Source: an uncultured Eubacteriaceae bacterium (GTDB lineage Bacteria; Bacillota; Clostridia; Lachnospirales; CAG-274). From it: a stretch of 64,000 nt of DNA. Positions 8,152 through 49,302 of this stretch are shown piece after piece (positions within the stretch are counted from its first letter, which is position 1; each line of letters opens with the position of its first letter). The notes beneath the pieces are model-generated. The model saw only the letters and a program-made list of their open reading frames with translations. It was not told where the DNA came from and made no database searches. The DNA lies in the NCBI GenBank assembly GCA_947167715.1, contig CAMVJD010000003.1:1-64000 (forward strand). The letters are read 5' to 3'. A program made the translations under genes and the position numbers.

Positions 8152-8280
8152 ATGAGAAGCACTAAAAAGATATTTGCCGTATTATTGGCGGTCATGGCGG
8201 TACTGCTGCTGTGTACGGCGGTGTTTGCCGATACACCCGCATTTACCGTGCGCTATATTTTTGTACGCGATCATACTTGA
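8152..8280 (+). pseudogene. 5' stub of a secreted protein (signal peptide only)
   Basis: This 42-codon frame reads MRSTKKIFAVLLAVMAVLLL and on to a cleavage-like TAVFADTP, a textbook signal peptide, preceded by a GGGGG ribosome site and a promoter. From about 8245 it runs into DNA that on the other strand encodes the C-terminus of an NRPS reductase domain, and it stops at 8280. A deletion has evidently fused the start of a secreted-protein gene to the end of the leftward NRPS gene. The identity of the lost protein cannot be told. Confidence 0.7.
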
Positions 8281-8724
8281 AAGTATAGCTGCCTTTTGCG
8301 GGTCTTTTTCCGCCTTGGCAACAGCTTCATCAAATACCTTGTCTTCGACAAATTTTATGTCTATACCCGCTTTGTTCATTTCGGTTATGATATCACCCAG
8401 CGGAATAATATGATTGTTGGTACAGTTAAACAGACAGCATTCCTTTGGAACGGAGGCAATGGCAAAAAAGGCTCTGACACTCTCGTCAATGGGTCCCATA
8501 CATATGGGAGAATTTATCATTGAGTACGGGAAACAGCCGAGTATTCCGTATGACCTAAGCCTTCCCGAAAAATTGTTGGTAAGGAAATTCATCTGAAATT
8601 CCCCGTCACTTTTGCGCGCAGACAAGGTGCCTACACGAATGACCTTTGCATCAAGTCCCTGCTCCGCTATGGCCTCAAGCACCACACGCTCGGAAAGAAG
8701 CTTTGAAATAGTAGAAATATACAT
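8182..8724 (-). pseudogene. NRPS remnant: C-terminal part of terminal reductase (R) domain
   Basis: The frame reads YISTISKLLSERVVLEAI and continues through RVGTLSARKSDGEFQMNF, the central and C-terminal part of a thioester reductase. These SDR-type domains release NRPS products as aldehydes with NAD(P)H. The N-terminal NAD-binding part is in the upstream fragment in a different frame, with the intervening piece deleted. Homology ends around 8250, where it meets the signal-peptide stub; the last 30 or so residues are out-of-family. It is part of the broken NRPS gene at 8250-12152 and not functional on its own. Confidence 0.75.
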
Positions 8725-10123
8725 TTTTCAAACGAATAAGAGGCTCGTCAAATCGGCCTTTCCTTAAAAGACAGTAGGCCTTGCCCTTTTCGTGCTTAAG
8801 GAAATGCGCCAATACATGAATACCCATAAATCCCGTTGCTCCCGTCAGCATAATATTCCCGACAGGCCGTGTTTTGCCCTCCATAAGACTTAAAACAACA
8901 GTTTTTACCGACTCCGCAAGTGTACGCATATAAGATTCTGTGTAAATGGCATTGTTGTAGCGTATGGTAACCGCGATTTGGCCGTTTTTATCTTCAATGG
9001 CGATCGTCACCTTAAATTTGGGCGCTTCAAGCTTAAGATACTCTGTTTTGTATGCGGCTTCACCTATGCTGTTTTTTGAACCGCTTACACCAAGCTGACA
9101 CTCATACATTATTTCCGTGCGATAGCCGTATTTGTCTGCAAGCTGAATAAACGGATAGGTCTCGTTTTCCATACCGCCGAGCATTGAGGCATTTGCCGCC
9201 TTTAAAAGCTCGTCCGAGGTCATTTTTTTGTTAAAATTGATATGGAGCGGCAGTGTATGTACAAACATACCTACGGTATGGCGTGTCCGGCTGCTGACTC
9301 TTCCACTTGAAATGGTGGAGATATACACATTTTTGTTGTTTGCAAAGCGCGATACGGTATAAAATGCCGCAGCAAGAAACAGGCTTGCGGGAGTGATTGC
9401 TTTTTCTTGGCAAAAACTCTTTACACGCCCTTTTTCAAGCATTACGTCAACTATGCCTATCCGTCCCTCTTCAATTCTTCCGCTTTTATCCGCAGGTATC
9501 TCCGCCGCGGTCTCAAATTCGCTCATCATATCCGTGAAGTATTGCTCGGAAATTTGATATTCATTGCTTTCTTTGTACTCGCTTTCGCCGAGTGCATAAT
9601 CAAAATAATTTAATTCCTCAACCTCCGTATTCTCTCCGCTGTATGCCTTGGAAACAGTATCCATAAACAAACCTCGCGAAAGACCGTCAAATATGATATG
9701 GTGAAGATCCGAAAGAAGATAGGTCTTTTTGTCCGTTATTATTATTTCAAAACGATACAGTATATCCTTATGCAGATCAAACGGTCTTACAAATTTCTTC
9801 TTTCGCTCTTCAAATTCGGTTTCCGTCATTTCGCTTACGGGTATTTCGCAGCCGTATTTTTCTTCAACAAAGGTTGCAAACGAAATTGCCGTAAGTGACG
9901 TCATTCCGAGATTCATAAGATTTATCCCAATCTCGTCGATAGGCGAGCCTATTGCCTTTTCCGCGAGCTGACAGATATCACGTTCAAACGCCGTTAATTG
10001 ATGCGGCGTTGACGGGCCCTCGGCCTTTTCGGCAATAATAGGGTCGGGCAGATTTTTCATATCTTTTTTTCCGTTGAATGTATGCGGCATTTCTTCAAGC
10101 TGCATATACGCGGTCGGCACCAT
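8675..10123 (-). pseudogene. NRPS remnant: carrier (T) - condensation (C2) - start of reductase
   Basis: In reading order: the end of an adenylation domain (MVPTAYMQLEEMPHTFNGK), a carrier domain with the pantetheine-site serine in LGMTSLT, then a jump into the middle of a second condensation domain. The jump (EMTETEFEERKKKFVRPFDL) skips that domain's N-terminus. The C domain keeps an intact HHIIFDG active-site motif. It then joins directly to the NAD-binding start of a reductase (MLTGATGFMG), which implies loss of a second A-T module. The frame ends in non-homologous residues after RLKN. The 482 codons are open but the domains are incomplete, so it is a mosaic of internal deletions. Confidence 0.75.
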
Positions 10124-10159
10124 ATAATGTGTAAGCTTTGATGCGGCGTGGTTTTTAAC

Positions 10160-10380
10160 AAACTAAATAAGTCCCCCGCTTTTAAAGCGGGGGTGCTTAC
10201 TTAAAATTCAGTGGGAGTCCAAGCTCCCACTGAATTTGGAATTGCTTGCAATTCCGTTGGTTATGAGTTATGGCGTAACACGCCAAAGGCGTGTATAGCC
10301 TACAGAGGATGAGCCTGTACGCGCTTGTCGCGCGTTTCGGCTTATGAAGCAGAAATTTATTTCTGCGGAATACGAATATC
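10160..10380 (-). repeat. Hairpin-array insertion (IS200/IS605-type end, MITE/PATE or omegaRNA-like) inside the NRPS gene
   Basis: Six perfect hairpins occur in 200 bases: 10173-10193 (10-bp stem, CCCCCGCTTT), 10204-10237 (14-bp stem AAATTCAGTGGGAG, 6-nt loop), 10238-10255 (GGAATTGC), 10278-10294 (ACACGCC), 10319-10335 (ACGCGC) and 10349-10366 (GCAGAAA). It carries no protein. Flanking codons are parts of one adenylation domain (ends ..DKQIDIEK; resumes VKNHAASKLTHYMVP), so this is an insertion that splits the gene. The closing GC hairpin before ACTTATTTAG on the minus strand resembles right ends of IS605-family elements, whose transcripts form TnpB guide RNAs. Strand is assigned on that resemblance. 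Confidence 0.65.
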
Positions 10381-11719
10381 ATTGACGCTTTTCGATATCT
10401 ATTTGCTTATCGGCCGTAAAATATGCCGCTATATGCTCTGTATTATTTATTGTTTTAACGGCGACGGCAGCCTCCTTGATACCGTCAAAGCTTCCAATAA
10501 CGTTTTCTATCTCGCCAAGCTCTATACGCAGTCCTCGCAGCTTTATCTGGCTGTCAAGTCTGCCGATTATCAAAACACGGCCCTCATTATCCCATTTGGC
10601 CAGATCCCCTGTGCGATACATTCGTTCGCCGTTATAGGTGACAAACAGTTCCGCCGTCTTTTTCTCCGGATTTCTGTATCCCTTTCCGACAACTATTCCG
10701 CCGACATACAACTCATCCGCAACTCCAAAGGGCGCTATATCTCCGAATTTATCGACTATATACTCCTTGTAATTAAGAAGCGGCCTGCCTACCGTTACAT
10801 ATTCCGCACTTGTAAGATCCCCTACGTTGCAGGAGACGGTTATTTCGGTAGGACCGTAAGTGTTGAGCAGCCGTGCATTCGGGGCTATTTCTTTTATTTT
10901 GTCACGAAGAGAAATAGGGTATAACTCGCCGCCCGCCATTATACATTTGCAATATTTCAATCTTTCGCAAAATGCAGCGTTATATAAATACTGCTGAAGC
11001 CTTGACGGGGTGGCATTTATGCAATCAACATTATACTTTTCCATCAAACGCGCCAATGCTCTTGGGTCGTTCATATCGCTGTCGGAGGAAAAAACCAGCG
11101 TTTTACCGTTGCAAAGCGACGCTGTGTGTTCCCTGAACGACATATCAAACGATACTGTGGTTATCGACAGATATGTATTGACAAGGTCGTGAACGGACTT
11201 CATATGTATATTGGCGGGATGAGGCCGGAGATAATTACATATACCCTCGTGTTTAAGCATTACACCCTTCGGCACACCGGTCGAACCCGATGTGTATATC
11301 ATATACGCAAGAGAATCGCCCGTTATCTCCACATTGTTTGCATCCGACGGACGCATATTGGTGGGAACGCCTATAACGACCTCCTCCGATGATGTATATT
11401 TTCCGAGAACCATTGAAATTGCCGAAAAAAACAGTTCAAATTTGGTGATATCGAGCTTTTTTGCGGTATCTTCCGGCTTTTTCAGCTCCGAAGCATCGTA
11501 TTTATCGGTTATTATGCTGTCTGATACGGGGTGTATCTCCGGTCGCTTGCCTTTTATCGGCATTTCGCAAACAGGCACTCCGTTTTCAAATAACTTGCGA
11601 TAATATGCAAGCCCGTTTTCTTTGTCGATTTTTCTATCCCAAATATCCGAAAGATCGTATTTTGGCGGCTCTATTGCTTCATTGCATAAAGCCTTGTTAA
11701 ATTCAACGAAAAATGTCCT
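10379..11719 (-). pseudogene. NRPS remnant: condensation (C1) fused by deletion to adenylation (A1)
   Basis: The frame starts inside a condensation domain (RTFFVEFNKALCNEA) and continues to VVIGVPTNMRPSDA. It then jumps in frame to the A3 core of an adenylation domain (YTSGSTGVPKGV). Later adenylation cores are present: NTYGPTE (A5), YRTGDLAKW (A7) and the Arg-rich A8 around GRLDSQIKLRGLRIELG. The end of C1 and the N-terminal part of A1, including the A1-A2 cores and part of the substrate pocket, are deleted. The frame is cut by the hairpin-array insertion at its 3' end. Adenylation selectivity therefore cannot be read. Confidence 0.75.
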
Positions 11720-12152
11720 TGCGGGAGCCCCCGTCAAATGTAATATGATGTGTTGCCAAGTGCAGTATAACAAAGCCGTCTGCCGCGGTATATACCGTCG
11801 GGCGTACGGGTATATCCTTTTCAAGGTCAAAGGGTATCGCATATTTCTCGGCGATAGCTATTGCTTTTGCACGGTCTGCCGCGGTCTTTTCGTCTATTGC
11901 GGGCAAATTTTCCGAAATTATACGCACGGGTCTCCCGTCCCGCTCACCGTAATACGAATGAAAGACCTCGTGTGCGGCAAAAACTTTGGTTATTGCTGCC
12001 TTAACTTCTTCTGAAGATGCGCCCTCAATAATAAGCAAAATATTCAAATTATACTCCGTTGACTGCGGATCCAGCTTTTGCGATATATACATTCCTCTCT
12101 CATATGCCGTAAGCGGATATACTTTATCGGATCTTTGAATGTTCGTTTCCAT
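11703..12152 (-). pseudogene. NRPS remnant: start of first condensation domain
   Basis: Begins METNIQRSDKVYPLTAYERG, a normal start of an NRPS beginning with a C domain, and keeps the active-site motif HHITFDG. A one-base shift in a run of five G (around 11731) throws it out of frame eight codons later; the same domain continues in the frame ending at 10379. No strong ribosome site is visible. If assembled, the gene is C-A-T-C-(A-T lost)-R, the architecture of gut Clostridia NRPSs that make dipeptide aldehydes/pyrazinones. Confidence 0.7.
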
Positions 12153-12496
12153 TTTTGATTTGTATGACAAAGGATATGATCTTTGCACATACTCTCATTT
12201 CCCTCATATTTTATACTCCAACTTTTGTCGTTTCAAGGTTATATTTTATCCTCCGAATACAGCTTTAATTTACCTTACAGGATACCATAATATACACCGT
12301 CAAACAATATCCCGTGATGTAGAATTTATGCGAATAAGATTGGATATATTTACCTATATTCCACTTTCTCCCTTTGCAAACAATAGCATGGATCTTGCAC
12401 CGTTTACAAAACCAAAAATCGGTAACGAAAATTTTGCCCCGATCAAATTGCACAAAAATTGTTGAAAATGTATAAAATCCCGCAATAAACTAATAA
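12153..12496. other. Gene-poor stretch upstream of the NRPS remnant
   Basis: About 340 AT-rich bases between the start of the leftward NRPS remnant and the hairpin before the AbrB-like gene. No convincing gene or promoter was found. It presumably held the control region of the NRPS gene. Confidence 0.4.
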
Positions 12497-14708: not shown

Positions 14709-15182
14709 TCAACTACAACTTGTCAAATAATTAATACAATCACGAATTGCGCCCTCTCCTGCTTTAAAACTAGAAATGTAGTCAGCAAGACAAAAAACCT
14801 CAGAAATTGCATCAGATGGACATAAAACCAAGCCACCTGATTTCTTTACCGCCTCCATACAAGGAATATCAGGTAAATCATCTCCTGCATAAGCTACCGA
14901 ACTAAAATCGTCTCCAACAACTTCCCTTAGCATTTTAAGTTTGTCTTTAACCCCTTGGTACAATTCAGTTATTCCAATTTCTTTACACCTATTTTCAACA
15001 ATCTTACTACTGCGTGCAGTAATAATTATAGGAGTTATCTCATACTTAGGAAGTATGAGGAGTATGCCGCAACCATCTTTAATATTAAAGGCTTTTGCTA
15101 TTTCACCATTTTCTCCCATATAGATTTTGCCATCGGTTAATGTTCCATCAACATCCATGACAAGATATTTTATTTTACCCAT
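14709..15182 (-). CDS. KdsC-like HAD phosphatase
   Basis: The 157-residue C0-type HAD protein has the KdsC pattern: DVDGTLTDGKIY near the N-terminus (nucleophile Asp and acid/base Asp), IITARSS (motif II), and AYAGDDLPDIPCM (motif IV). The family dephosphorylates KDO-8-phosphate or sialic acid 9-phosphate and forms tetramers. It follows the ThDP enzyme by 42 bases on the same strand, and a CMP-sugar synthetase lies four genes upstream. A phosphatase for a phosphorylated ulosonic-type acid is therefore the best inference. The true substrate is not known because no KdsA or NeuB homologue is present. Confidence 0.75.
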   Translation of the reverse strand: MGKIKYLVMDVDGTLTDGKIYMGENGEIAKAFNIKDGCGILLILPKYEITPIIITARSSKIVENRCKEIGITELYQGVKDKLKMLREVVGDDFSSVAYAGDDLPDIPCMEAVKKSGGLVLCPSDAISEVFCLADYISSFKAGEGAIRDCINYLTSCS

Positions 15183-15224
15183 ATCTACACCTCACCCCAT
15201 TCTTTGATAAATTCAAATCATTTT

Positions 15225-16334
15225 TCAAGATAAGATTGTTTTTGCCTTTTCCATAACTTCATCATCTAAAAGAGGCTTCATTTCTCGCTCGTTCCAATTC
15301 ATTTTAGGCTGAAGAATTGTTGCTTCCGGCAACATAATGTTAATAAGGCATGGTTCATCATCTGTAAGCCACTTCATACAGCTATCAAGTTCTTCGTATC
15401 CGTCAAGCGTTTTTGACTTTATTCCGTACGCCTTGGCAACCTTTTCGAAATCTGGAACTGTATATCCGCCGCTTTCATCCGTAATAAGCATACGATTAGC
15501 ATACGAACCAACTTGAATTTCAACAATTTTTCCGAGTGCTTTGTTGTTTATTACAAATATCTTAATTGGCAACTTTTCACTAGCAATAGTTTGAAGTTCT
15601 TGAATATTCATCTGTAAGCCGCCGTCTCCGGTTATACAGTAAACAATTTTTTTTCCTTCAGCTAATGTCGCACCTATAGCATATGGAAGCCCGCACCCCA
15701 TGGAACCATAACTACCACCTATCAGTATTCGTCCTTTTCTTCCTTTTAATGTCAGACTTTGAGCCGACCAGCACTGAGCTTGACCAATATCAATAGCAAC
15801 AATCGGATTTTCCGGCAAAAGTGATGAAATCTTCTCAATGCACAAATTACCGAGATCTTTATCATATGGTTCTAAAAGATTCCGTGCTTCAAAGCAAGCT
15901 TTATTCCAATCTGTATATTCAGGAATATCTTCATCAATAAGTTTCTGAATAAATTCATTCGCATCAATAAGATGCTTTTCTTCATTTTCTTTAACATTTC
16001 GGCTTAACTCATACTGGTCTATATCTGCACGTATAAGAAATGCATTGGGTGCAAAAAATTCTTTCTTGTTTCCAATTTGGCGAAGCCCTAAACGCGCACC
16101 TATGCTAATAACAAGATCACACTGTTCTACTATCATATTAGCAACTCGATTGCCATAAACGCCAATGAACCCCAATTTATTTTTATCCTGTACCAAGTCC
16201 ACAGCATTCATTGTTGTTAAAATAGGGATTTTAGTTTTTTCATAGAAGGCATGAAGTTTTTCCGCACCTCCAGCTTCACGGCATCCGTTACCTACAATTA
16301 CAATCGGCTTTTTGGATGTTAAACGGAAAATCAA
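15225..16334 (-). pseudogene. ThDP-dependent (acetolactate synthase-like) enzyme, C-terminal part
   Basis: This carries the central and the cofactor-binding PP domain of a three-domain ThDP enzyme. IVIVGNGCREAGG opens the central domain. The PP domain has GSYGSMGCGLPYAIG and the diphosphate-binding GDGG..N motif (GDGGLQMNIQEL). It starts (TTG at 16334) in a frame shifted relative to the N-terminal part at 16288-16821, and together they give 546 residues where about 570 is usual, so a linker is also missing. The junction TCCAAAAAGCCGAT reads in both frames. Most likely one gene was broken by deletion between short direct repeats. The reaction (decarboxylation or acyl transfer from a 2-keto acid) is unknown. 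Confidence 0.7.
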
Positions 16335-16821
16335 TTATAACACCCCCCTTTCTTCCTATCATTGCTAAATTGTATGCTCTACTTATTATTTCCGGAAATT
16401 TTTCAGGATCTGATGGTGTTACCGATAGTTTTGTGATACTCCTCGTCATCGAAACAATATCCATCTCTTGAAATCCATTTTGTCGAATTCCTGAATACCC
16501 CTTCTGTTCATTAGTAGGAACATTTCCACAAACTCCCATAATAGGAATTCCATCGAACCATGCATCAGCTAATCCGCCAAGTGCATTAACCGCACCGGGA
16601 CCAGAAGTTGTAAAATAAACTCCAAGTTTTCCACTTACCCTTGCATAACCATTTGCCGCAAACGCGCAACCCTGCTCGTTATAACAAACGTGGGTAGTAA
16701 TTTCATCTTTTCTTTTGTAAAGTGCATCTATAAAAGGAACTATATATCCACCGGAAAAGCCGAAAACATCAGTAATACCTTTTTTTATAAGATAGTCTAC
16801 TAAATAGTCTGCACAATTCAT
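16288..16821 (-). pseudogene. ThDP-dependent (acetolactate synthase-like) enzyme, N-terminal part
   Basis: The PYR domain of a ThDP enzyme: MNCADYLVDYLIKKGITDVF, then HVCYNEQGCAFAANGYAR with the catalytic Glu that activates ThDP, then TTSGPGAVNALGGLADAW. It ends VIIDFPFNIQ followed by a short out-of-family tail and stop. Its ATG overlaps the stop of the aldolase gene by one base (TAATG), so it is translationally coupled. The split from the C-terminal part makes the enzyme probably inactive, unless the two halves assemble in trans or the frame is restored by phase variation. Confidence 0.7.
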
Positions 16822-17861
16822 TATTTACTCTCTCTTTCTTTCGTATAAGTATCATATGCTGCCTGCAAATTAGTAAAATCAGTTTTGCTATATCCCGTTC
16901 CATACCTTGTCCTTTGCGAAACAGGCATAGACTTAATCACTTCATACATTCCTCTTGCTGTACAATCAGTATTATTTTGTAAATAATATACGTTATCTAC
17001 ATGAGCATGCTCAGTGCCACAAACAAACATAGGTAAATCATATCCCCAGCAAATATTCTTTCTTAAGGGCTCTATAAATGCTTGAATGGTATCAAGAAGA
17101 ATCTGTATATTGTAATTTGCACCATGATGTTTATTTAAATAACTTGCAAGAAGCTCTGTGCTTGCATTACCTGCGCCGCGTCCCATTCCCAAAAGTGAGC
17201 CGTCAACAATAACATCTCGACCAGTATTTTCTGCCAACATAATCATAGTCTCAGCAAGAGCCGTTGATAATCCAAGATTATCATGACTATGCAGGCCTAT
17301 TGCAATATTCGGGTCAAGCAAAGCATCCATTTGTTTAAAAATATGGCGGAGATCCTCTAAATACATAGCACCAAATGTATCAACAATTGACATAGACCCA
17401 GGTTTTACTTTATTTACTTTTTCAATAAGTCCAGCTCTTTCCTTATCTGTATAACTAACTGCATCCATAGGGTTGAACTGAACTATATAGCCCTTATCTT
17501 GTGCCTTACGACAAAAATCTATGGATTCATCAATTTCATGTTTAGCAAAAGATATACGCAACCATTTAAAGCTATTACCATCATAACTATCTAAATTATG
17601 CGGACTATACCTACTATTGTCACAAAATCCCAAGAACTGCGTACGTCCTTTATTCTCAGGAAGGTATTTCCTTGCATCTACAGAGTTTGCGTATACCAAT
17701 GTCTCACCTGTTGTTTTCGTTTGTAAGAAACCAGTCTCCACAAAATCAATGCCTGCATCGGCAAGTCCTTTCATAATTCCTCTTACAAATTCGGGATCTG
17801 AATTTTTATTGAGGAGGTATCCTCCATCCCTAATAGTACAATCAGTTATTCGAACCGCCAT
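16821..17861 (-). CDS. DRE-TIM aldolase (HMG-CoA lyase-like / 4-hydroxy-2-oxovalerate aldolase-like)
   Basis: A 346-residue TIM-barrel metal enzyme. The superfamily signature is DCTIRDGGYLLN near residue 7 (metal Asp and catalytic Arg), and the divalent-metal HxH occurs in GLHSHDNLG. GMGRGAGNASTE in the second half recalls DmpG-type aldolases. Such enzymes join or split pyruvate and an aldehyde, or use acyl-CoA. It overlaps the CMP-sugar synthetase gene by 20 bases and abuts the ThDP gene, so all three act together. In this setting it may build a 2-keto acid sugar in place of NeuB/KdsA, an inference from context only. Confidence 0.75.
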   Translation of the reverse strand: MAVRITDCTIRDGGYLLNKNSDPEFVRGIMKGLADAGIDFVETGFLQTKTTGETLVYANSVDARKYLPENKGRTQFLGFCDNSRYSPHNLDSYDGNSFKWLRISFAKHEIDESIDFCRKAQDKGYIVQFNPMDAVSYTDKERAGLIEKVNKVKPGSMSIVDTFGAMYLEDLRHIFKQMDALLDPNIAIGLHSHDNLGLSTALAETMIMLAENTGRDVIVDGSLLGMGRGAGNASTELLASYLNKHHGANYNIQILLDTIQAFIEPLRKNICWGYDLPMFVCGTEHAHVDNVYYLQNNTDCTARGMYEVIKSMPVSQRTRYGTGYSKTDFTNLQAAYDTYTKERESK

Positions 17862-18513
17862 CTTTTTTTATGACCTCCTTGTATACTGCATTTGCAATAT
17901 CAAAATCCTCCGGATAATCAATGTCCATTGCTTCGATTTTACCAACTTCTTTTATAAATGGATGCGAACCTAATCGACGGTTATGTTTAAGAAAACTCTC
18001 TTTTGTAAATACATATGCAATGGAAGTTTCACCATAGATTAGCGGTAAATCCTGCGTCCTGGGGAAATGATCAGGATCAAAGTTTATAGGTTTCCCATCT
18101 TCCCACATGAATGTGCGCAACGACTCTGCACAAAACGCACTATCATATTCACCACTTGCAACCTTGTCAACCAACTCTGCAATAGTTGAAGGTTTTGCAA
18201 ATGGGGATGTTGTATGCGCATTAACATAAATATCCGCATCAACAGTTTTCATAAACTCACGAATAAAATCATTGGCGTTGATGTTGTCTCCGTCGAGATA
18301 ATCTGGTCGTTTGAGATATTTTACCCCCGGAATAACATATGGTATTACTGCGTCATCCGAACAATAGATGTAAATCTCATCAATATTGCCTGCATTTATA
18401 CATGCTTTCTGAATGAATGACATCAAAGGCTTTCCGTCAAAAAAAGGTTTTATGTTTTTACCTGGAACGCGTTTTGAGCCTAATTTAATTGGTATTAAAG
18501 CAACAGTTTTCAT
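17842..18513 (-). CDS. Acylneuraminate/KDO-type cytidylyltransferase
   Basis: Family members activate ulosonic acids as CMP-sugars. The 223-residue protein has the N-terminal loop ALIPIKLGSKRVPGKNI, which binds CTP, and the later conserved AHTTSPFAKPSTI and AMDIDYPEDFDIA (metal-binding Asp). Its ATG follows a clear AAGGAG. It is closest in pattern to NeuA-like proteins of polysaccharide loci. The acid it activates is not known. It is probably transferred by the polysialyltransferase-like protein at 19976-21100 upstream in the same operon. Confidence 0.82.
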   Translation of the reverse strand: MKTVALIPIKLGSKRVPGKNIKPFFDGKPLMSFIQKACINAGNIDEIYIYCSDDAVIPYVIPGVKYLKRPDYLDGDNINANDFIREFMKTVDADIYVNAHTTSPFAKPSTIAELVDKVASGEYDSAFCAESLRTFMWEDGKPINFDPDHFPRTQDLPLIYGETSIAYVFTKESFLKHNRRLGSHPFIKEVGKIEAMDIDYPEDFDIANAVYKEVIKKDGGSNN

Positions 18514-18667
18514 AAATTTACTCCTTAAAAAAATTTACTATAATATCTTTTTTAGTTTTAAAAAAATTAATACTATCTAGAAACATAAGCCTATGCTTTA
18601 CTTTTTATGCTATTCATTTTATTGACATATATTTTATTATAATAAAGATTATTCAGCATTGTTTATA

Positions 18668-19807
18668 CTATTTCGCTTTTAATATAAGCATTGCTTCGTG
18701 TAATAATTCTTTATGTCTTTTTATCAACTTATATATAATACGATATATATAACCAATTGGCATTAGCCATTTATGCTTATAAAAAAAAGGGTAGTGATAT
18801 TTAAAAACATTGATTGAAGGAAATAATCTCTTAAAACAATACCTAATCTTCCCAATTGTTTTAGAATTCGATTTATCCACTTCATCACTTATTACATTAT
18901 CAAGATTACCATATGTACCAGATAGTACAAAGCGTTTTAGAAAAAGCAATGAATCTTCATCCATTGACTCCAATTGAATAACGTTTTCAGTTAGAAAATA
19001 CCTTTCACAAAATTCTCTACACTTTTTTTCATAGTCTAGTAATTCAAGTTCGCACAAAATATTTTCCACGTAATCCCAATCAAGAGTAGGTTTGTTTTTC
19101 AAAAAAACAAACCTATCAATAAGTGAACGTAATCCTGTTCCTCCTTCAACATAATGCTTGTATTCATGAGTTGTTATATAAATATAAAAATCTTCATCTG
19201 TGAAGTGATATCCATATTTATTATTATCATCTTTCACTAAAATTTGCTTCACATTTCTAAAATATAATTCCCATTTAGGATTTGCATAATAAGACGCAAA
19301 AAGCGACATATGCATTTCAAAATTATAAAACGGTTTTTTTATAAACGCATCATCCTTGCCGTCATGGTTTGCCTTATATCCTCGTGAAATCATATAATCC
19401 CATATAATTTTCTGAAACCTATCATCAAACAAAATATCATTATCTGACATTTCTCTCATAACTGGGTCTGGATACATATCTTTTAGCAATACGCCTTTTA
19501 AGGGCAAATACCAGATTTTATTATCTTCTAAAAAAGATATGATTTTGTTTCGCTCAACGTCCATTGCGACACTTTTTGAAGCAATAAGGAGCAAATCATG
19601 TTCCCATTTTTTATATAAATCATTTGGTAATATAATATTTTGTTTTTTTAAGCACAGCAAGGTAATCGCAGTTAGGCTGTGTGCCTTACTTAATTCATAC
19701 AAGTCATATAAATTTATTTCTTTTTCACTAATTTGAATAGCTTTGTTATTCAAACCACATAATATAACATATAGCAAATTTATAGCTGATTCGAGATTAT
19801 TATGCAT
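18668..19807 (-). CDS. Nucleotidyltransferase-like protein of polysaccharide loci, copy 1
   Basis: A 379-residue protein of the 'uncharacterised nucleotidyltransferase' family (Pfam NTP_transf_5). The core is LPLKGVLLKDMYPDPVMREM followed by SDNDILF, the paired acidic residues of a minimal nucleotidyltransferase, at about residues 105-135. A helical C-terminal half holds the THEYKHYVEGG block. Reaction and substrate are unknown; members are common beside glycosyltransferases. Two homologues lie in this window: an intact one at 34038 and a fragment at 29246. Confidence 0.65.
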   Translation of the reverse strand: MHNNLESAINLLYVILCGLNNKAIQISEKEINLYDLYELSKAHSLTAITLLCLKKQNIILPNDLYKKWEHDLLLIASKSVAMDVERNKIISFLEDNKIWYLPLKGVLLKDMYPDPVMREMSDNDILFDDRFQKIIWDYMISRGYKANHDGKDDAFIKKPFYNFEMHMSLFASYYANPKWELYFRNVKQILVKDDNNKYGYHFTDEDFYIYITTHEYKHYVEGGTGLRSLIDRFVFLKNKPTLDWDYVENILCELELLDYEKKCREFCERYFLTENVIQLESMDEDSLLFLKRFVLSGTYGNLDNVISDEVDKSNSKTIGKIRYCFKRLFPSINVFKYHYPFFYKHKWLMPIGYIYRIIYKLIKRHKELLHEAMLILKAK

Positions 19808-19975
19808 ACAGTACTCTCCACTTAATTTTATAAATTAAAACATTTCCATATTTTGTATTTTTAATACACTATAGAGAATTGTTTTCCAGTTTTTACATAT
19901 TCAATAGAACAGCCTAAATACTCGCTTGTGCAAATTTAAAAATCCCCACAACTGATATATGATTAATGCTTTAAT

Positions 19976-21100
19976 TTACAAAAGCGATTTTAAAACTTCT
20001 TTCAACTTTTTATAACTTTCAGGAATAAAAACTTTTCTATCTTTTGTAATACTAAGATATTTTTTTATATAATTCCCTAATAACTTATCACTCGTTTTCA
20101 GTTTATGCTTCATGCATTCATACAAAAAAACTTTATAGCAGTCATCACCAAAAAAAATATCGGACGAGAACAAAGCTCCTGAACCTATTGAAACAAATAT
20201 TTTTCCGTTCATGTTATTATTTAGTTGAATAATTTCCCAAGGAACGGATGAAACCTCCGAAACATGAACTCCTAGATTTTGATAGCGGTTTCCCTTCCTT
20301 CTCGGATGCATTTTTATCAATATGTCTTTAGGTTCAAAAACATTACATAGTTGCTCCACAAGATCAACTTCTTCGTTATTATTTTCGAAATAGGCTGCAC
20401 CCGATTCAAAAAAAATAATCTTTTCATCTATTTTATCTGCCGTATAATCAAATGCCTGATTCAAAAACTCTCTTAATTCATCATTATCCCTACTTATTTG
20501 AGGACTTTTAATCAGCTTATATTTAGGCCTTATTACAGATATTTCCGTGTTTGATAGATAATACCCCTTAACAGCATCCTCTATACAGTAATTTTGAAAC
20601 ATCTTTTGTGTAAAACGTTCTAAAAAAACACGAAATTTGCCTTTTTCCTTTCCATATTCATACATACCACTACTAACACCATCTTCGATCCTAAAAACTT
20701 GCATTCGTGGATTATTATTTTTACATGTGTTAAATATAGCCTCCGGTAAAGCTCCTGCGCCATTGAAGAAAAAAATATCATATTTTTTATCAAAGTTCGT
20801 TTGCAATATTTCATCTACTACAACTTTAGGCTTAACCAATGACCTAAGATAAAGTATATATTTGGGTAATTTTTTTATTATACTCCATGTTTTCCCGGTT
20901 CTGCACAAAACAGTATCTGCCAAATATACATTTTCATACACTGTTTTGTTATTCAAATTATTATATATTTGTTTAGCACTTTTAAAAGAATTATATATAA
21001 TAATATCTGCTTTTTCATCTTTATATAATGTCATTTTTAAATTTGTTGCTATTATGAATTGGAATGCCGAATCCACACAAAATAACAAATTTTTTTCCAT
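19976..21100 (-). CDS. Polysialyltransferase-like (GT52/POLYST type) glycosyltransferase
   Basis: The 374-residue protein shows a GT-B pattern of CMP-sialic-acid-using transferases. It starts LLFCVDSAFQFIIATNL, has FFNGAGALPE midway, the KMHPRRKG motif (HP motif that binds CMP) near residue 265, and a Ser-rich VSIGSGALFSS near 305. These match the alpha-2,8-polysialyltransferase/GT52 families in order, but overall similarity is weak. With a NeuA-like gene in the same operon, it is the likely transferase for the CMP-activated acid. It has AGGAG before its ATG and follows the Wzx gene by 12 bases. Confidence 0.55.
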   Translation of the reverse strand: MEKNLLFCVDSAFQFIIATNLKMTLYKDEKADIIIYNSFKSAKQIYNNLNNKTVYENVYLADTVLCRTGKTWSIIKKLPKYILYLRSLVKPKVVVDEILQTNFDKKYDIFFFNGAGALPEAIFNTCKNNNPRMQVFRIEDGVSSGMYEYGKEKGKFRVFLERFTQKMFQNYCIEDAVKGYYLSNTEISVIRPKYKLIKSPQISRDNDELREFLNQAFDYTADKIDEKIIFFESGAAYFENNNEEVDLVEQLCNVFEPKDILIKMHPRRKGNRYQNLGVHVSEVSSVPWEIIQLNNNMNGKIFVSIGSGALFSSDIFFGDDCYKVFLYECMKHKLKTSDKLLGNYIKKYLSITKDRKVFIPESYKKLKEVLKSLL

Positions 21101-25439: not shown

Positions 25440-26006
25440 TTATTGACATATTTTTTTTGCCGCCTCTTTTAAAGATAATACATACTCAATCTTTTGCCTT
25501 TTATCCGAATCCAGTGCTAATAGTAGATTTTTGTTTGATATTCCTCCCACAAGAAACCCTCTACAATTCGTATTAAAACAAATCTCTAAATCTCTTATTT
25601 TATCACCAATTGCAAAGCTTCTATCTATATCTATATCTAGCTCCTGTATTGCCTGTGTAAATAATCCTAGTTTGGGTTTTCTGCACTCGCAGTCAATTCT
25701 ATATTTCTCCACGCTCGCGTCTTTTAGATGTGGACAGTAGTATGATCCCGCAATGTTAATACCGTTTTTTTTCAATTCTATGCACATGTAATCCATGAGT
25801 TTATAATACTCTTGTTCTGTATAATATCCTCTGCCTATACCCGATTGGTTAGTTATTATCACAAGTAGGAAACCGGCATCTTGAAGCATTTTTAACCCAT
25901 CTATTACACCTGGAATAAATTCAAAATCCTCTATTTTGTAAAGATAATGTTTTTCAACATTTATAGTCCCATCTCTATCTAAAAATACTGCCTTATTTAA
26001 GCTCAT
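25440..26006 (-). CDS. gmhB: D,D-heptose 1,7-bisphosphate 7-phosphatase
   Basis: This HAD phosphatase removes the C7 phosphate in ADP-heptose synthesis. The motifs are FLDRDGTIN (Asp nucleophile), ITNQSGIGRGYY and the zinc-binding CPHLKD..CECRKPKLG, which distinguishes GmhB from histidinol phosphatase-like relatives lacking it; motif IV is IGDKIRDL. The ATG at 26006 is chosen over a TTG six bases upstream. It overlaps gmhA by 14 bases, so it is co-translated with gmhA and hldE. About 188 residues is normal. Confidence 0.9.
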   Translation of the reverse strand: MSLNKAVFLDRDGTINVEKHYLYKIEDFEFIPGVIDGLKMLQDAGFLLVIITNQSGIGRGYYTEQEYYKLMDYMCIELKKNGINIAGSYYCPHLKDASVEKYRIDCECRKPKLGLFTQAIQELDIDIDRSFAIGDKIRDLEICFNTNCRGFLVGGISNKNLLLALDSDKRQKIEYVLSLKEAAKKICQ

Positions 26007-26565
26007 TTTCAACTATCTCACATATACTATGAATTATTGTTATATGACTTTCCTGGACTCTTGCCGTAGTATTACATTTGACAATTACCGGATAATCAAC
26101 TTTTCTGCTGATCTTTCCTCCGTCTTTACCTAACAGTGCGGCAGTTTTAGCACCGCTTTCTTTTGCTGCGTCAACAGCTCTGAGCACATTTTCAGAATTC
26201 CCGCTGGTGCTTATACCTATAAACACATCTTTATCTGTAAGATGAGCCTTAGCTTGTCTTGCAAAAGCATCATCATACCCATAATCATTGGCAATAGCAG
26301 TAAGCGTAGCAACATCCGCATTTAGAACAACAGCAGGCCAAGGATTTCTTTCTTTTTGAAACCTGCCAACTATCTCACCCGCAAAATGCAATGCATCAGA
26401 TGCCGAACCACCATTGCCGCATAAAACAAGTTTTCCTCCTCTTTTTATGCACTCAACAATCTCATCCGCAAGTTCCTCAATAACATTTATTAAGGCTTCA
26501 TCAGCAATTATGCTTTTTTTAACTTCTATACTATCCTGCAATCTTTCTATAACAATACTGCCCAT
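25993..26565 (-). CDS. gmhA: Sedoheptulose 7-phosphate isomerase
   Basis: GmhA converts sedoheptulose 7-phosphate to D-glycero-D-manno-heptose 7-phosphate. The 190-residue SIS-domain protein has CGNGGSASDALHFAGEIVGRF (phosphate-binding loop), ADVATLTAIANDYGYD (catalytic Asp/Glu region) and STSGNSENV, all characteristic. Start ATG follows AAGGAG. It is tightly packed between hldE (three bases) and gmhB (overlap). Confidence 0.94.
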   Translation of the reverse strand: MGSIVIERLQDSIEVKKSIIADEALINVIEELADEIVECIKRGGKLVLCGNGGSASDALHFAGEIVGRFQKERNPWPAVVLNADVATLTAIANDYGYDDAFARQAKAHLTDKDVFIGISTSGNSENVLRAVDAAKESGAKTAALLGKDGGKISRKVDYPVIVKCNTTARVQESHITIIHSICEIVENELK

Positions 26566-26568
26566 CTT

Positions 26569-27996
26569 TTACTCCTTAATCTTATTAATGATATTTGTCG
26601 TAGATTTACCATCGACAAAAGATATCAATTCTAACTTTCCACCTCTTGCTTCAACTATATCTTTTCCAACAACATTATCGGGGTTATAATCTCCGCCTTT
26701 TACCAGTATGTCCGGTTGGATGATCTTTATAAGTTCATAAGGTGTATCTTCATCAAATATAGTTACATAATCCACGTATTCAAGTGCACACAATAACTCC
26801 GCACGGTCAAGTTCAGAATTAATCGGTCTGTCTTCACCTTTTAAACGCTTTACAGAAGTATCACTATTAAGACCAATAATAAGTATATCACCAAGTTTGG
26901 CCGCCTCCTGTAAATATCTTATATGGCCTACATGAAGAATATCGAAACAGCCGTTTGTAAATACAATTTTCTTCTTTTCATTATCTTTTCTGAATGACTT
27001 GACTGTCTCGTTATCAATCAACTTATGTATAACACCGCGCTTACCTCTAAGCAAGAATTCTTTGACTTCGTTAAGGTATACAGATGACGTGCCAACTTTA
27101 GCCACCTGTAATCCTGCTGCATAATTTGCTATCTCGACCGCTTTTTTTATATCCATCTTATTTGCGAGACAAGCAGCAAGATATGCAATAGTAGTATCAC
27201 CCGCACCAGTAACATCAAATACTTCTTTGCCATATGCATCAACTATGTAATGTTCCTTTTCTCCAACAAGAATCATTCCTCTTGCACCACATGTTGTAAG
27301 TACATATTCGCACGAACACAAGCCTCGAAGTTCTCTTGAAACTTTAATTATTTCTTCATCAGTCTTCGGCTGTTTTCCCGTCAGCATACTTAATTCATTA
27401 AGATTAGGTTTTATCAGAAAAGCATTTCTATACTTTTCTATTCTCGTATCTTTAACATCAACAAGGGTAGGAATATTTAACTTTTTTGCAAGTCTTAAAA
27501 CACCTTGAGTAAAATCATAACTCAATAAACCTTTCAAATAATCGGATAAAATTATCAAATCAAACTTTTCTATTTTATCCCTAAGGTCTTCCAGTAATTG
27601 AATCGATTCCGCTTTTGATATTTCATATGTATCCTCCATATCAAGCCTTAAAATCTGCTGATTATTGGATGCCATAAAACGTACTTTCTCGGTAGTACTT
27701 CTGTCACAATATGTCATAAGTTCCGTGTCTATTTCGTCTTTTTCAAGAAAACCAACTAATTTATGACCATTTATATCATCACCAACAACCGACATCATGG
27801 CTGCTTTTTGATTTGCCGCTATAAGATTTGCTGCAACATTCGCAGCACCACCAAGCACACAACGTTCCGATTTTTTGTGAAACACTGGTACGGGGGCTTC
27901 TGGAGAAATACGCTTTACATCGCCTTTATAGTAGGTGTCAAGCATGACATCTCCAATAACCAGTATTCTTTTTGATGAAACCAAACTTTTTCCCAT
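26569..27996 (-). CDS. hldE: Bifunctional heptose-7-phosphate kinase / heptose-1-phosphate adenylyltransferase
   Basis: HldE adds phosphate at C1 and later forms ADP-heptose. The N-terminal half (about 1-315) is a PfkB-type kinase: GDVMLDTYYKGDVKRISPEAPVP at the start (family-specific) and DVTGAGDT with the catalytic Asp near residue 250. The C-terminal domain (about 335-475) is a cytidylyltransferase fold with TNGCFDILHVGH and ends KSTTNIINKI. At 475 residues both domains are complete. No hldD epimerase gene is in the window, so the product may remain the D,D-form. Confidence 0.94.
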   Translation of the reverse strand: MGKSLVSSKRILVIGDVMLDTYYKGDVKRISPEAPVPVFHKKSERCVLGGAANVAANLIAANQKAAMMSVVGDDINGHKLVGFLEKDEIDTELMTYCDRSTTEKVRFMASNNQQILRLDMEDTYEISKAESIQLLEDLRDKIEKFDLIILSDYLKGLLSYDFTQGVLRLAKKLNIPTLVDVKDTRIEKYRNAFLIKPNLNELSMLTGKQPKTDEEIIKVSRELRGLCSCEYVLTTCGARGMILVGEKEHYIVDAYGKEVFDVTGAGDTTIAYLAACLANKMDIKKAVEIANYAAGLQVAKVGTSSVYLNEVKEFLLRGKRGVIHKLIDNETVKSFRKDNEKKKIVFTNGCFDILHVGHIRYLQEAAKLGDILIIGLNSDTSVKRLKGEDRPINSELDRAELLCALEYVDYVTIFDEDTPYELIKIIQPDILVKGGDYNPDNVVGKDIVEARGGKLELISFVDGKSTTNIINKIKE

Positions 27997-29245: not shown

Positions 29246-29714
29246 CTAAAAAACAACTATCCCATTGCAAGGGGTATTTATTCTAAATTCTTCTCCTATT
29301 GTGTTAAATACTTTCCCGTGAAATAATCCTTTATAAAAAACATAACCAACAGCATCATTTTCAAATTTATATCCTTCTCTCATGAAGAATTCCTTGATTC
29401 TTTTAGCCGCTTCAGGCTTTATTAATATATCAAAGTCGCCCATAGTTCGTATTTCTGGAATCGGGTATATACTTTTGATTATACTGCCTTTCAACGCAAC
29501 TAAACACAGGTCTTGCTCTAATGCCGTTTTAGTTATTCGTTCAAACTCATAAGCCTGTTTTACTCCCACCGTCACTGTCTCCAAGGTTTTTTCATTCCAT
29601 TTCTTTAACAGCTCTTTCGGTGGTTTTATGTTCAATTTTTCAATTGATGTATAAATCAATTCCACAATATTTTGTTCTACAGATTTTTTAAGAATATTTG
29701 TTGTTATAGTCCAT
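29246..29714 (-). pseudogene. Nucleotidyltransferase-like protein, fragment (copy 3)
   Basis: The same family as the proteins at 18668 and 34038: VALKGSIIKSIYPIPEIRTM followed by GDFDILI is the conserved core. Only about 155 of the usual 380 residues remain. A start at 29714 reads MDYNNKYS then stops; the proper N-terminus (ILKKSVEQNIVELIYTSIEK) continues in another frame, so one base is lost near the start. The C-terminus is cut after EFRINTP. It is certainly a non-functional relic. Confidence 0.75.
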
Positions 29715-34037: not shown

Positions 34038-35207
34038 ATGGAAAGACAGAAACAAAATTTTTTGAACATTCTTAATGCCTATGTAAATGAAAAGGCTATT
34101 AATCTTGATATGCCAGATTATAACGAAATATTTCATTTGGCAAAAATTAACAGCCTTGAAGCTGTCGTTTACTCAACTTTGAAGCAAAATGAAATTGTTC
34201 CTGAAGATGTTGATGTTGCATGCCTTGAAAACATATTCAATACAACAGTTATGTACTCGGTTAAACAGGAATATGTCACAAATGAAGTTGTTAAGATATT
34301 GACTGCAAATGAAGTCGAGCACTTGTTGTTTAAAGGTGCTATTATCAAGAGATTTTACCCAAGTCCTGAATTAAGGACTATGGGTGATATTGATATATAT
34401 GTGAATTTTGATAATCGAGATAAAGTCAAGACTATTCTTCTGGGAAATGGATACAAATTAGATGAGGTTAATTCTCATACCAACGTTTGGAATTATACAA
34501 AAAACAATATTGTCATCGAAATGCATACCGTTTTATTTGAAAGGAATTTGTACCAAGATATATCTTTAGATGATTATTATAAAACCCCTTTTTTACTTGC
34601 AATAAAAGACGATGAATACAGTTATGTATTTACTATCGAAAACCATCTTGTATATATGCTTCTGCATATGGCAAAACATTTTGTAAATGGTGGTTGTGGC
34701 ATAAGAATGTTGTTGGATATTGTTTTTGTGCTAAAAACCAGTAACGATTTGGATTGGCAATATATTAAGAGTGAATTACAGGATAATAACATATATCAAT
34801 TTGCGTTAAATATTTTTAGTTTGTCTACAGATTTGTTTGGTGTGAAATATCCATTTGAGAAAAACGAAAACAATCTTGATTATATACTGGAATATATGAT
34901 TAATGGTGGCGTTTTTGGCTATGAAGGCAAGAATATTGATGCAATTAGAACTTCAAAAAAGACAACAGGTAAAGGAAACATCTTGAGATTGATTTTTCCG
35001 TCATATAAGGATATAACCACAAGATATGTATGGGCAAATAAATACCCTCGTTTTTTATTACCAATATGCTGGATAAAAATGTGGTTTTATAGATTGTTTG
35101 TTGTAAAAGAGAATAGTTTCAAGCGAGTGATTGATATGGCAAAAAGTGGCAATGACGCAATCGCTCATAGAAAAATCCTTGAATCAATAGGATTAAGTAA
35201 GGATTAG
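34038..35207 (+). CDS. Nucleotidyltransferase-like protein of polysaccharide loci, copy 2
   Basis: A 389-residue, intact member of the same NTP_transf_5-like family as copies 1 and 3. The core is LLFKGAIIKRFYPSPELRTM followed by GDIDIYVNF, and the middle block is NHLVYMLLHMAKHFVNGG. A good ribosome site (GAGGGGG) precedes the ATG. It heads the rightward locus, with a 720-base gap after it, so it may be transcribed separately. Function is unknown; its repeated presence in surface polysaccharide loci suggests a role in glycan modification or precursor activation. Confidence 0.65.
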   Translation: MERQKQNFLNILNAYVNEKAINLDMPDYNEIFHLAKINSLEAVVYSTLKQNEIVPEDVDVACLENIFNTTVMYSVKQEYVTNEVVKILTANEVEHLLFKGAIIKRFYPSPELRTMGDIDIYVNFDNRDKVKTILLGNGYKLDEVNSHTNVWNYTKNNIVIEMHTVLFERNLYQDISLDDYYKTPFLLAIKDDEYSYVFTIENHLVYMLLHMAKHFVNGGCGIRMLLDIVFVLKTSNDLDWQYIKSELQDNNIYQFALNIFSLSTDLFGVKYPFEKNENNLDYILEYMINGGVFGYEGKNIDAIRTSKKTTGKGNILRLIFPSYKDITTRYVWANKYPRFLLPICWIKMWFYRLFVVKENSFKRVIDMAKSGNDAIAHRKILESIGLSKD

Positions 35208-49288: not shown

Positions 49289-49302
49289 AAGGAGATAAAA
49301 TT

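Follow-up and report, generated by a model that had tools for sequence, protein, structure and literature searches.

A gene cluster for a proposed CMP-3-deoxy-2-ulosonic acid pathway with a DRE-TIM aldolase in place of a PEP-dependent synthase

The window analysed here comprises 64,000 nucleotides of contig CAMVJD010000003.1 from an uncultured Eubacteriaceae bacterium of the gut, and profile searches of its open reading frames identified all five expected kinds of genes on the minus strand between positions 14709 and 21100 (Table 1). A previous sequence-only reading had described neighbouring genes for a KdsC-like phosphatase, a ThDP enzyme, a DRE-TIM aldolase and a NeuA-like transferase, with a polysialyltransferase-like gene upstream, and the domain matches confirm this arrangement. 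The NeuA-like protein reached 77.5 bits with the PseF model, below its cut-off of 205.7, and also stayed below the cut-off of the KdsB equivalog model. A comparison at the DNA level with the E. coli genome collection gave no match.

Table 1. Genes of the cluster, with the profile matches on which their assignments are based
Gene product	Position	Strand	Matches and proposed role
KdsC-like HAD phosphatase, 157 aa	14709..15182	-	TIGR01670, 142 bits (cut-off 107); proposed ulosonate-phosphate phosphatase
Split ThDP enzyme, C subunit (middle and PP domains), 369 aa, TTG start	15225..16334	-	PF00205, PF02775
Split ThDP enzyme, N subunit (PYR domain), 177 aa	16288..16821	-	PF02776
DRE-TIM pyruvate aldolase-like enzyme, 346 aa	16821..17861	-	PF00682, E 2.9e-23; proposed to form the C-C bond
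NeuA/PseF-like CMP-sugar-acid cytidylyltransferase, 223 aa	17842..18513	-	PF02348, 56.3 bits (cut-off 22.6)
NTP_transf_5 family protein	18668..19807	-	PF14907, 130.6 bits; lies between the NeuA and polysialyltransferase-like genes
Polysialyltransferase-like glycosyltransferase	19976..21100	-	PF07388, 35.4 bits (cut-off 23.3); proposed user of the CMP-sugar acid

A genome scan seeded with three NeuA proteins yielded 80 NeuA-anchored loci, including two seed loci (L081 and L109) and a few loci sharing one genome. An aldolase gene was present in 65 of the 80 loci, which is not an unbiased rate because all seed NeuA proteins have an aldolase neighbour; without L081 and L109, the count was 63 of 78. 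One of the 65 aldolases (L115) is represented only by a 43-bit fragment. NeuB and KdsA were each found in a single one of the 80 loci, and among 20 NeuB-anchored control regions, one showed an aldolase match, which was weak (72 bits). Homologues of the polysialyltransferase-like enzyme occurred in 17 of the 80 loci, and eight of the 15 loci without an aldolase were Bacteroidales KdsD-NeuA pairs. Among the 19 loci containing a split ThDP enzyme, 16 (all except L051, L061 and L068) have a KdsC gene no more than 5 kb from NeuA, while 24 of the 65 aldolase loci had no KdsC within this distance, some of them owing to a contig end. Because the split-type loci, mostly from MAGs, span five phylum labels in their records (Bacillota, Bacteroidota, Spirochaetota, Synergistota and Thermoplasmatota), the gene set occurs far beyond chance. 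In an aldolase tree of 73 rows, restricted to loci with more than 150 bits and at least 300 aa, the 20 aldolases linked to split ThDP genes formed one clade among the NeuA-linked aldolases (support 100/100). On plasmids, tblastn matched 84 records, all at less than 60% identity, and most of the 40 matches listed were named DmpG or MhpE. A Leisingera plasmid carries a long aldolase gene together with KdsB-like and HAD genes, a Desulfobaculum plasmid carries RfbH, a split transketolase and an aldolase, and the matches on Priestia and Paraburkholderia plasmids have no polysaccharide context.

The ThDP enzyme anticipated as a single gene is indeed present but encoded by two overlapping genes. Together they provide the complete domain set of acetohydroxyacid synthase, and the enzyme shares these domains and the ThDP motifs with acetohydroxyacid synthase and the YerE-like carboligases (JanthE, ErwE and YerE), as well as the acetohydroxyacid synthase-like Arg in the motif LRQ[IVT]G. 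In contrast to these enzymes, it consists of two subunits, split after the PYR domain and with the linker lost; the two genes scored 206.7 and 156.9 bits with the one-polypeptide model of acetohydroxyacid synthase (TIGR00118, cut-off 538), and the enzyme has Lys in the motif LGKI where ALS II and the unsplit enzyme of L038 have Met. The overlapping reading frames and the loss of about 40 residues at the joint compared to full-length relatives might indicate a broken acetolactate synthase gene in a cluster decaying in the source genome, which we regard as hardly credible, since the same split into about 177 and 370 aa recurs with the same joint in 19 of the 80 loci from several phyla. In 16 of these, the second gene starts with TTG and its overlap with the preceding gene measures 47 nt including the stop codon, as in the window, whereas it has its own ATG and a 4-nt overlap in three Bacteroidales loci. 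Moreover, the GDG motif and the Glu of the PYR domain are retained, and a truncated C subunit was observed only in L051. The interpretation as a frameshifted pseudogene was rejected because of this conservation.

The predicted model of the aldolase (pLDDT 94.7) resembles most closely the structure 3DXI (Z 35.0, 25% identity), the N-terminal domain of BVU_2661 from Bacteroides vulgatus, which is described in its entry only as a putative aldolase. Among characterised enzymes, the 4-hydroxy-2-oxovalerate (pyruvate) aldolases are nearest to the modelled fold (1nvm, 4lrt, 4lrs, 8ih7 and 4jn6; Z 32.3–33.2 over 321–326 residues). The model shares the DRE-TIM fold with DmpG, BphI and AmnG over almost its full length and combines it with their Asp/His/His metal site; the predicted ligands D12, H191 and H193 are invariant in an alignment of 23 aldolases (L089, L100 and L109 left out). 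Unlike DmpG, BphI and AmnG, the enzyme is linked to NeuA, has relatives fused to a sialyltransferase-fold domain, and stays far below the score of the curated family (78.6 bits with TIGR03217, cut-off 286). It also contains a Tyr at the position of the His following RDG in DmpG, which we take to be a catalytic residue, and this counts against our preferred explanation. Fold, metal ligands and gene context support the earlier proposal that the enzyme may form a C-C bond with pyruvate. Because the DRE-TIM proteins also include Claisen-condensing enzymes of the citramalate or homocitrate synthase type as well as degradative aldolases, and the protein weakly matches isopropylmalate and homocitrate synthase models, it could belong to one of these groups and be a neighbour of NeuA only incidentally. 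We consider this highly improbable, given the scores of 86.7 bits with 4-hydroxy-2-oxovalerate aldolase models versus 51.6 bits for the alternatives, the weaker structural match of the latter (Z values of at most 27.7 over about 250 residues), and a linkage to NeuA in so many loci that it is hard to call incidental. The NeuA linkage, the surrounding surface-polysaccharide genes and the sialyltransferase-fold fusion of relatives likewise argue against a role in an unrelated degradation route, which had been named as a possible refutation.

The source genome (99.5% complete) contains no match to either NeuB (PF03102) or KdsA (TIGR01362), with controls for both models positive in 9 of 14 cases, and the lack of a PEP-dependent synthase noted from the window thus extends to the genome. 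Matches to KdsD and KdsB reached 28 and 22 bits, below the respective cut-offs. The cluster shares with the NeuB/SpsE- and KdsA-dependent pathways to CMP-sialic acids and CMP-Kdo a NeuA-type cytidylyltransferase (PF02348 above cut-off), a KdsC-type phosphatase (TIGR01670) and a polysialyltransferase-like transferase, but instead of the synthase its operon encodes a DRE-TIM aldolase together with a split ThDP enzyme. Among the relatives, NeuB was sought in 50 of the genomes containing the 80 loci, KdsA in two sets of 25 and 29 genomes and KdsD in 47. NeuB gave no match in 11 of the 19 split-type genomes; seven of the 19 lack both a NeuB match and a KdsA above cut-off, and the remaining 12 each contain at least one of them. 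KdsD-fed Kdo synthesis was rejected as a rule for the split-type loci, since no KdsD above cut-off occurs in the source genome or in 13 of the 19 split-type genomes. In four Pseudobutyrivibrio loci, KdsD directly follows the aldolase gene, and the genomes have no KdsA or KdsB above cut-off; they do contain NeuB elsewhere (249–295 bits), so only KdsA and not NeuB is missing there. A KdsA-KdsD pair lies immediately upstream of the NeuA, aldolase and ThDP genes in L057 and about 11 kb from NeuA on the same contig in the genome of L068, and the aldolase cannot simply replace KdsA in these genomes. The NeuA clade studied here might simply be the CMP-Kdo synthetase of the Bacteroidales KdsD-NeuA loci; the six genomes with such pairs that were tested contain ordinary KdsA and KdsB, the latter above cut-off, which is compatible with more than one substrate.

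Further hints at the pathway came from fusions and replacements in the relatives. KdsC is fused to a sialate-anomerase-like YhcH domain in nine of the 19 split-type loci; the three fusion proteins scanned were above the cut-off of the YhcH family and below that of the N-acetylneuraminate anomerase model (E 7.4e-14 to 1.7e-23). Many related aldolases, but not that of the window, carry a C-terminal domain of about 200 residues with a predicted fold common to the Cst-II and Maf sialyltransferases. In VIA-align comparisons, this domain gave Z values of 12.3 with Maf, 11.5 with Cst-II and 8.1–9.8 with mammalian sialyltransferases before a drop to 4.9 (11.1–12.3 for Maf, Cst-I and Cst-II, with the gap after rank 26). 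The same fold also occurs in HPPK and SteA, with comparable Z values, and Foldseek alone placed these two on top, with no sialyltransferase among the 50 matches listed. The C-domain alignment comprised 26 sequences; seven loci were dropped for lack of the start motif, as were those not within 500–600 aa. In L095 and L105, NeuA is followed by a pyruvate aldolase of the different HpcH/HpaI family in place of the DRE-TIM enzyme, and L070 and L088 contain an RpiB-type isomerase beside the aldolase. A split transketolase occupies the slot of the ThDP enzyme in L089, which gives some support to the suggestion that the ThDP enzyme may supply or add a two-carbon unit.

As an alternative, the cluster may encode a route similar to those for erwiniose or yersiniose, in which the aldolase makes a 4-hydroxy-2-oxo acid, the ThDP enzyme decarboxylates it and adds the product to a keto group, and KdsC and NeuA process the resulting branched acidic sugar. 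Consistent with this, the C subunit of the ThDP enzyme is almost as close to JanthE (8rph, E 3.9e-43) as to ALS II (E 5.2e-47), and both the window and all 19 split-type loci retain the Arg of LRQ[IVT]G. Related aldolase-ThDP pairs are present in the CDP-dideoxysugar-like clusters L032 and L038, and the aldolase of L128 is paired with a split transketolase beside RfbH. A precedent is given by ErwE, for which 4-hydroxy-2-oxo acids and CDP-4-keto-3,6-dideoxyglucose are reported as substrates (PMC12247030). However, 46 of the 65 NeuA-aldolase loci contain no split ALS-type ThDP subunits (L089 having the split transketolase instead), indicating that the substrate of NeuA does not need the ThDP enzyme. 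Moreover, the clade of the split-linked aldolases is separate from the L038/L128 pair, yet the L032/L034 pair falls into its sister group, and reading through the listed open reading frames of the window revealed none recognisable as a CDP-glucose, RfbH-like or CDP-4-keto-3,6-dideoxyhexose gene. Taken together, we regard the branched-sugar route as rather unlikely.

We consider it probable that the cluster encodes a CMP-3-deoxy-2-ulosonic acid pathway employing a class II pyruvate aldolase in place of the PEP-dependent synthase. This proposal builds on the observed gene set and its conservation, the predicted folds, the fusions, and the pattern of NeuB, KdsA, KdsB and KdsD in the source genome, from which we infer the identity of the sugar and the step of the ThDP enzyme. 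The split ThDP enzyme would either produce the acceptor aldehyde or extend the acceptor by carboligation, and the DRE-TIM aldolase, as suggested by its fold, metal ligands and context, would condense pyruvate with the phosphorylated aldehyde to a 3-deoxy-2-ulosonate phosphate. The KdsC-like phosphatase would then remove the phosphate, with the fused YhcH domain of some relatives possibly interconverting ring and open forms, and the NeuA-like enzyme would generate the CMP-ulosonate. Finally, the polysialyltransferase-like enzyme would transfer the ulosonate to a surface polysaccharide, a function that may reside in the sialyltransferase-fold domain of the aldolase itself in many relatives.

It appears about evenly balanced whether bacteria from several phyla synthesise an entire family of CMP-ulosonic acids through such a PEP-independent modular route, perhaps joined by an archaeon known here only from a MAG. 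A DRE-TIM or HpcH/HpaI aldolase would extend interchangeable aldehyde phosphates provided by KdsD (arabinose-5-phosphate), an RpiB-type isomerase, a transketolase or the new two-subunit ThDP carboligase, KdsC-YhcH would dephosphorylate and anomerise the products, and NeuA would activate them, with one branch having fused the aldolase to the transferase. To our knowledge, the natural biosynthesis of sialic, legionaminic and pseudaminic acids and of Kdo always relies on a PEP-dependent synthase, and searches of an open-access library listed no description of a pathway like the one proposed. Klebsiella K38 may contain a 3-deoxy-pentulosonic acid, for which the same library listed no paper. The question is directly testable in Butyrivibrio sp. 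INlla18, Pseudobutyrivibrio ruminis AD2017 and Anaerostipes butyraticus JCM 17466. If true, the proposal would establish a novel biosynthetic strategy for a familiar class of cell-surface sugars, with a new two-subunit ThDP enzyme and a fusion of aldolase and transferase as further additions. NeuB and KdsA are the usual genome markers for such sugars, and if the aldolase route is widespread, these markers overlook a class of acidic surface sugars in gut and rumen bacteria.

The cluster comprises the genes listed in the table, most of which the sequence-only reading had assigned to a candidate CMP-ulosonic acid pathway without NeuB or KdsA. This claim is supported in outline: neither NeuB nor KdsA gave a match in the genome carrying the cluster (99.5% completeness, 0.6% contamination), where KdsD and KdsB gave only stray matches of 28 and 22 bits, far below cut-off, and an aldolase gene was found in 65 of the best 80 of 194 NeuA loci, a biased sample, as every NeuA seed had an aldolase neighbour. 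A CMP-ulosonic acid route with the aldolase replacing NeuB/KdsA is the best explanation of these observations and a probable one. We found no earlier description of an aldolase-based route in the open-access literature, where most subscription-journal papers are missing.

Genes of the cluster in the window
Feature	Position	Strand	Remark
Polysialyltransferase-like gene	19976-21100	minus	first in operon order
NTP_transf_5 gene	18668-19807	minus	Pfam-confirmed
NeuA-like cytidylyltransferase	17842-18513	minus	
DRE-TIM aldolase	16821-17861	minus	
ThDP enzyme, first half	16288-16821	minus	
ThDP enzyme, second half	15225-16334	minus	
KdsC-like phosphatase	14709-15182	minus	last in operon order

We regard the surroundings as a surface-polysaccharide cluster because a Wzy_C-domain gene and a WaaS/CpsH glycosyltransferase gene, both above their own cut-offs, and a flippase-like gene below its cut-off are located nearby, together with genes which we take to be rfbA/rfbC and ADP-heptose genes. 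The latter (GmhB-, GmhA- and HldE-like, window 25440-27996) were labelled by reading their translations; the nearest relatives of the cluster belong to Bacillota. Two further NTP_transf_5-like ORFs are present in the same polysaccharide region (window 29246-29665 and 34038-35207), Pfam confirmation applying only to the one in the table. Window 48257-50340 contains an adjoining pair of much alike ORFs, labelled as asparagine-synthase-like from their translations. On the minus strand of window 8182-12188, NRPS-like condensation, adenylation and reductase pieces are spread over four ORFs that do not share a frame; from the translations alone, this looks like a broken or misassembled gene. A second, long aldolase with an extra C-terminal stretch is encoded in the same genome (L031:9996-14326; G000:C3 about 100 kb) next to a HAD_2 phosphatase, an ATP-grasp protein and an epimerase-family protein, with no NeuA match in the 19 kb taken.

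The NeuA loci were collected by searching the contigs of genomes, with three aligned NeuA proteins as the query, and neighbours were counted in the retained best 80 of 194 loci by tblastn (E 1e-4). In these 80, which include the seed loci L081 and L109 themselves and a few loci from shared genomes, the aldolase gene was located within 1 kb of NeuA in 64 cases and within 300 bp in 59. KdsC was present within 5 kb in 41, the split ThDP enzyme in 19, the polysialyltransferase-like family in 17 and YhcH in 13 of the same best 80 of 194, and NeuB and KdsA occurred once each (L090 and L057, respectively). What makes this biased sample useful is how widely its identity (45-89%) and its labels range (Bacillota, Bacteroidota, Spirochaetota, Synergistota, Fibrobacterota and Thermoplasmatota). 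Most records are MAGs, and an individual label may stem from a binning error; the records of Butyrivibrio sp. NC2007, Butyrivibrio sp. INlla18, Pseudobutyrivibrio ruminis AD2017 and Anaerostipes butyraticus JCM 17466 bear strain names and no MAG tag. The 20 NeuB-anchored control regions, drawn from genomes of the NeuA set, contained a NeuA-like match in 16 cases and an aldolase match in one (72 bits, L151), and from this comparison NeuB and the aldolase look like alternative partners. One control region (L142; G084:C6:11000-30000) shows ALS-like ThDP matches of 95 and 130 bits close to NeuB.

At the genome level, PF03102 (NeuB) matched in 25 of 50 genomes searched, 12 of them with short matches only (34-44 bits), which look like DAHP synthases. 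A NeuB match was absent in 11 of the 19 split-type genomes, KdsA exceeded its cut-off in five (G073, G075, G076, G079 and G084), and seven had neither. KdsA-KdsD genes are located beside the full gene set in L057 and about 11 kb away on the L068 contig; therefore, two ulosonate routes may coexist there. Eight Bacteroidales KdsD-NeuA pairs occur without the aldolase (L093, L098, L099, L106 and L111-L114), and the six of their genomes searched contain KdsA and KdsB above cut-off.

The aldolase model (23 sequences, pLDDT 94.7) gave its best match with 3dxi (Z 35.0), the structure of a putative Bacteroides vulgatus aldolase. The 4-hydroxy-2-oxovalerate aldolases came next (Z 32.3-33.2 across 321-326 residues), and homocitrate/isopropylmalate synthases matched clearly more weakly (Z at most 27.7 across about 250 residues). 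R11 is invariant in the alignment, as are D12, H191 and H193, the metal ligands. The His following RDG in DmpG is replaced by Tyr. In 34 of the best 80 of 194 NeuA loci, an aldolase continues at its C-terminus into an additional domain (about 190-200 residues), which the window aldolase lacks. The model of this domain (26 sequences, pLDDT 92.1) matched a Maf glycosyltransferase (Z 12.3), Cst-II (11.5), Cst-I (11.1) and mammalian sialyltransferases (8.1-9.8), interspersed with HPPK (11.7) and SteA (11.4), before the values fell to 4.9; Foldseek alone placed HPPK and SteA on top.

Full-length ThDP relatives (e.g. at locus L032) contain about 40 residues between the PYR and middle domains, which are missing in the window enzyme, where the frame is broken at the same spot. 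The gene is split at one common place in 19 of the best 80 of 194 NeuA loci (L043, L044, L046-L061 and L068), yielding halves of about 177 and 370 residues, and judged by these sequences we consider the split enzyme real. In 16 of the 19, the second gene begins at a TTG codon and overlaps the first by 47 nt, counting the stop. A purine-rich stretch ahead of this TTG may serve as a ribosome site, though the overlapping GRKGG codons partly dictate it; the Bacteroidales loci L055, L058 and L059 use an own ATG with a 4-nt overlap. All 19 loci conserve the Arg of LRQ[IVT]G, and 18 also GDG and the Lys of LGKI, the exception being L051 of Butyrivibrio sp. NC2007 with a truncated C subunit (L051:12179-13072). 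No KdsC is present within the latter locus. The counterpart of the LGKI Lys is Met in ALS II and in the L038 enzyme, which is not split.

Pairs of the aldolase with a full-length ThDP enzyme occur in L032, L034 and L038. Those of L032 and L038 are located among genes which we presume to be of CDP-glucose/dideoxysugar type and resemble erwiniose or yersiniose clusters. Because YerE-like enzymes such as ErwE use 4-hydroxy-2-oxo acids for branched CDP-sugars (PMC12247030), an erwiniose-like role is a less likely alternative for the aldolase and ThDP enzyme of the window; against it, the split ThDP enzyme is absent in 46 of the 65 aldolase loci among the best 80 of 194. YerE-like chemistry may explain the L032 and L038 pairs. 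Another aldolase-ThDP combination, with RfbH and a split transketolase, is found on a Desulfobaculum bizertense plasmid (L128).

For the preferred CMP-ulosonic acid route, the neighbours offer clues to function. YhcH is a sialate anomerase, as an NCBIfam name also says, and is fused to KdsC (KdsC-YhcH/YiaL) in nine of the 19 split loci; three fusions scanned scored above the cut-off of the YhcH family model (67.5-97.4 vs. 45.5) and below that of the N-acetylneuraminate anomerase model (51.9-83.2 vs. 160). YhcH is a stand-alone gene in L060 (PF04074), and the window KdsC has no YhcH domain. In four Pseudobutyrivibrio loci with the order NeuA-Ald-KdsD, arabinose-5-P probably feeds the aldolase, because their genomes contain KdsD (302-304 bits) and neither KdsA nor KdsB above cut-off. 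NeuB is encoded elsewhere in these genomes (249-295 bits), and arabinose-5-P is, to our knowledge, not a NeuB substrate. KdsD also directly precedes NeuA in L055 and L057, and an RpiB-family isomerase (L070, L088) or a split transketolase (L089) is encoded between the aldolase and KdsC, so the aldolase neighbours are repeatedly predicted makers of aldose phosphates, with the split ThDP enzyme in the same slot. In L095 and L105, the gene next after NeuA codes for an HpcH/HpaI-type pyruvate aldolase of a different family. A Leisingera sp. M527 plasmid (L129) combines a long aldolase with an annotated 3-deoxy-manno-octulosonate cytidylyltransferase and a HAD hydrolase, possibly an alphaproteobacterial version of the route.

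In the midpoint-rooted aldolase tree (73 rows), the 20 split-linked aldolases including that of the window group in a single clade (100/100) within the NeuA-linked aldolases; its sister group (97/93) consists mostly of extra-domain aldolases together with L032 and L034, and the L038 and L128 aldolases are placed elsewhere. The NeuA-aldolase pair may thus well be the older arrangement, to which the split ThDP enzyme was added once before spreading across phyla.
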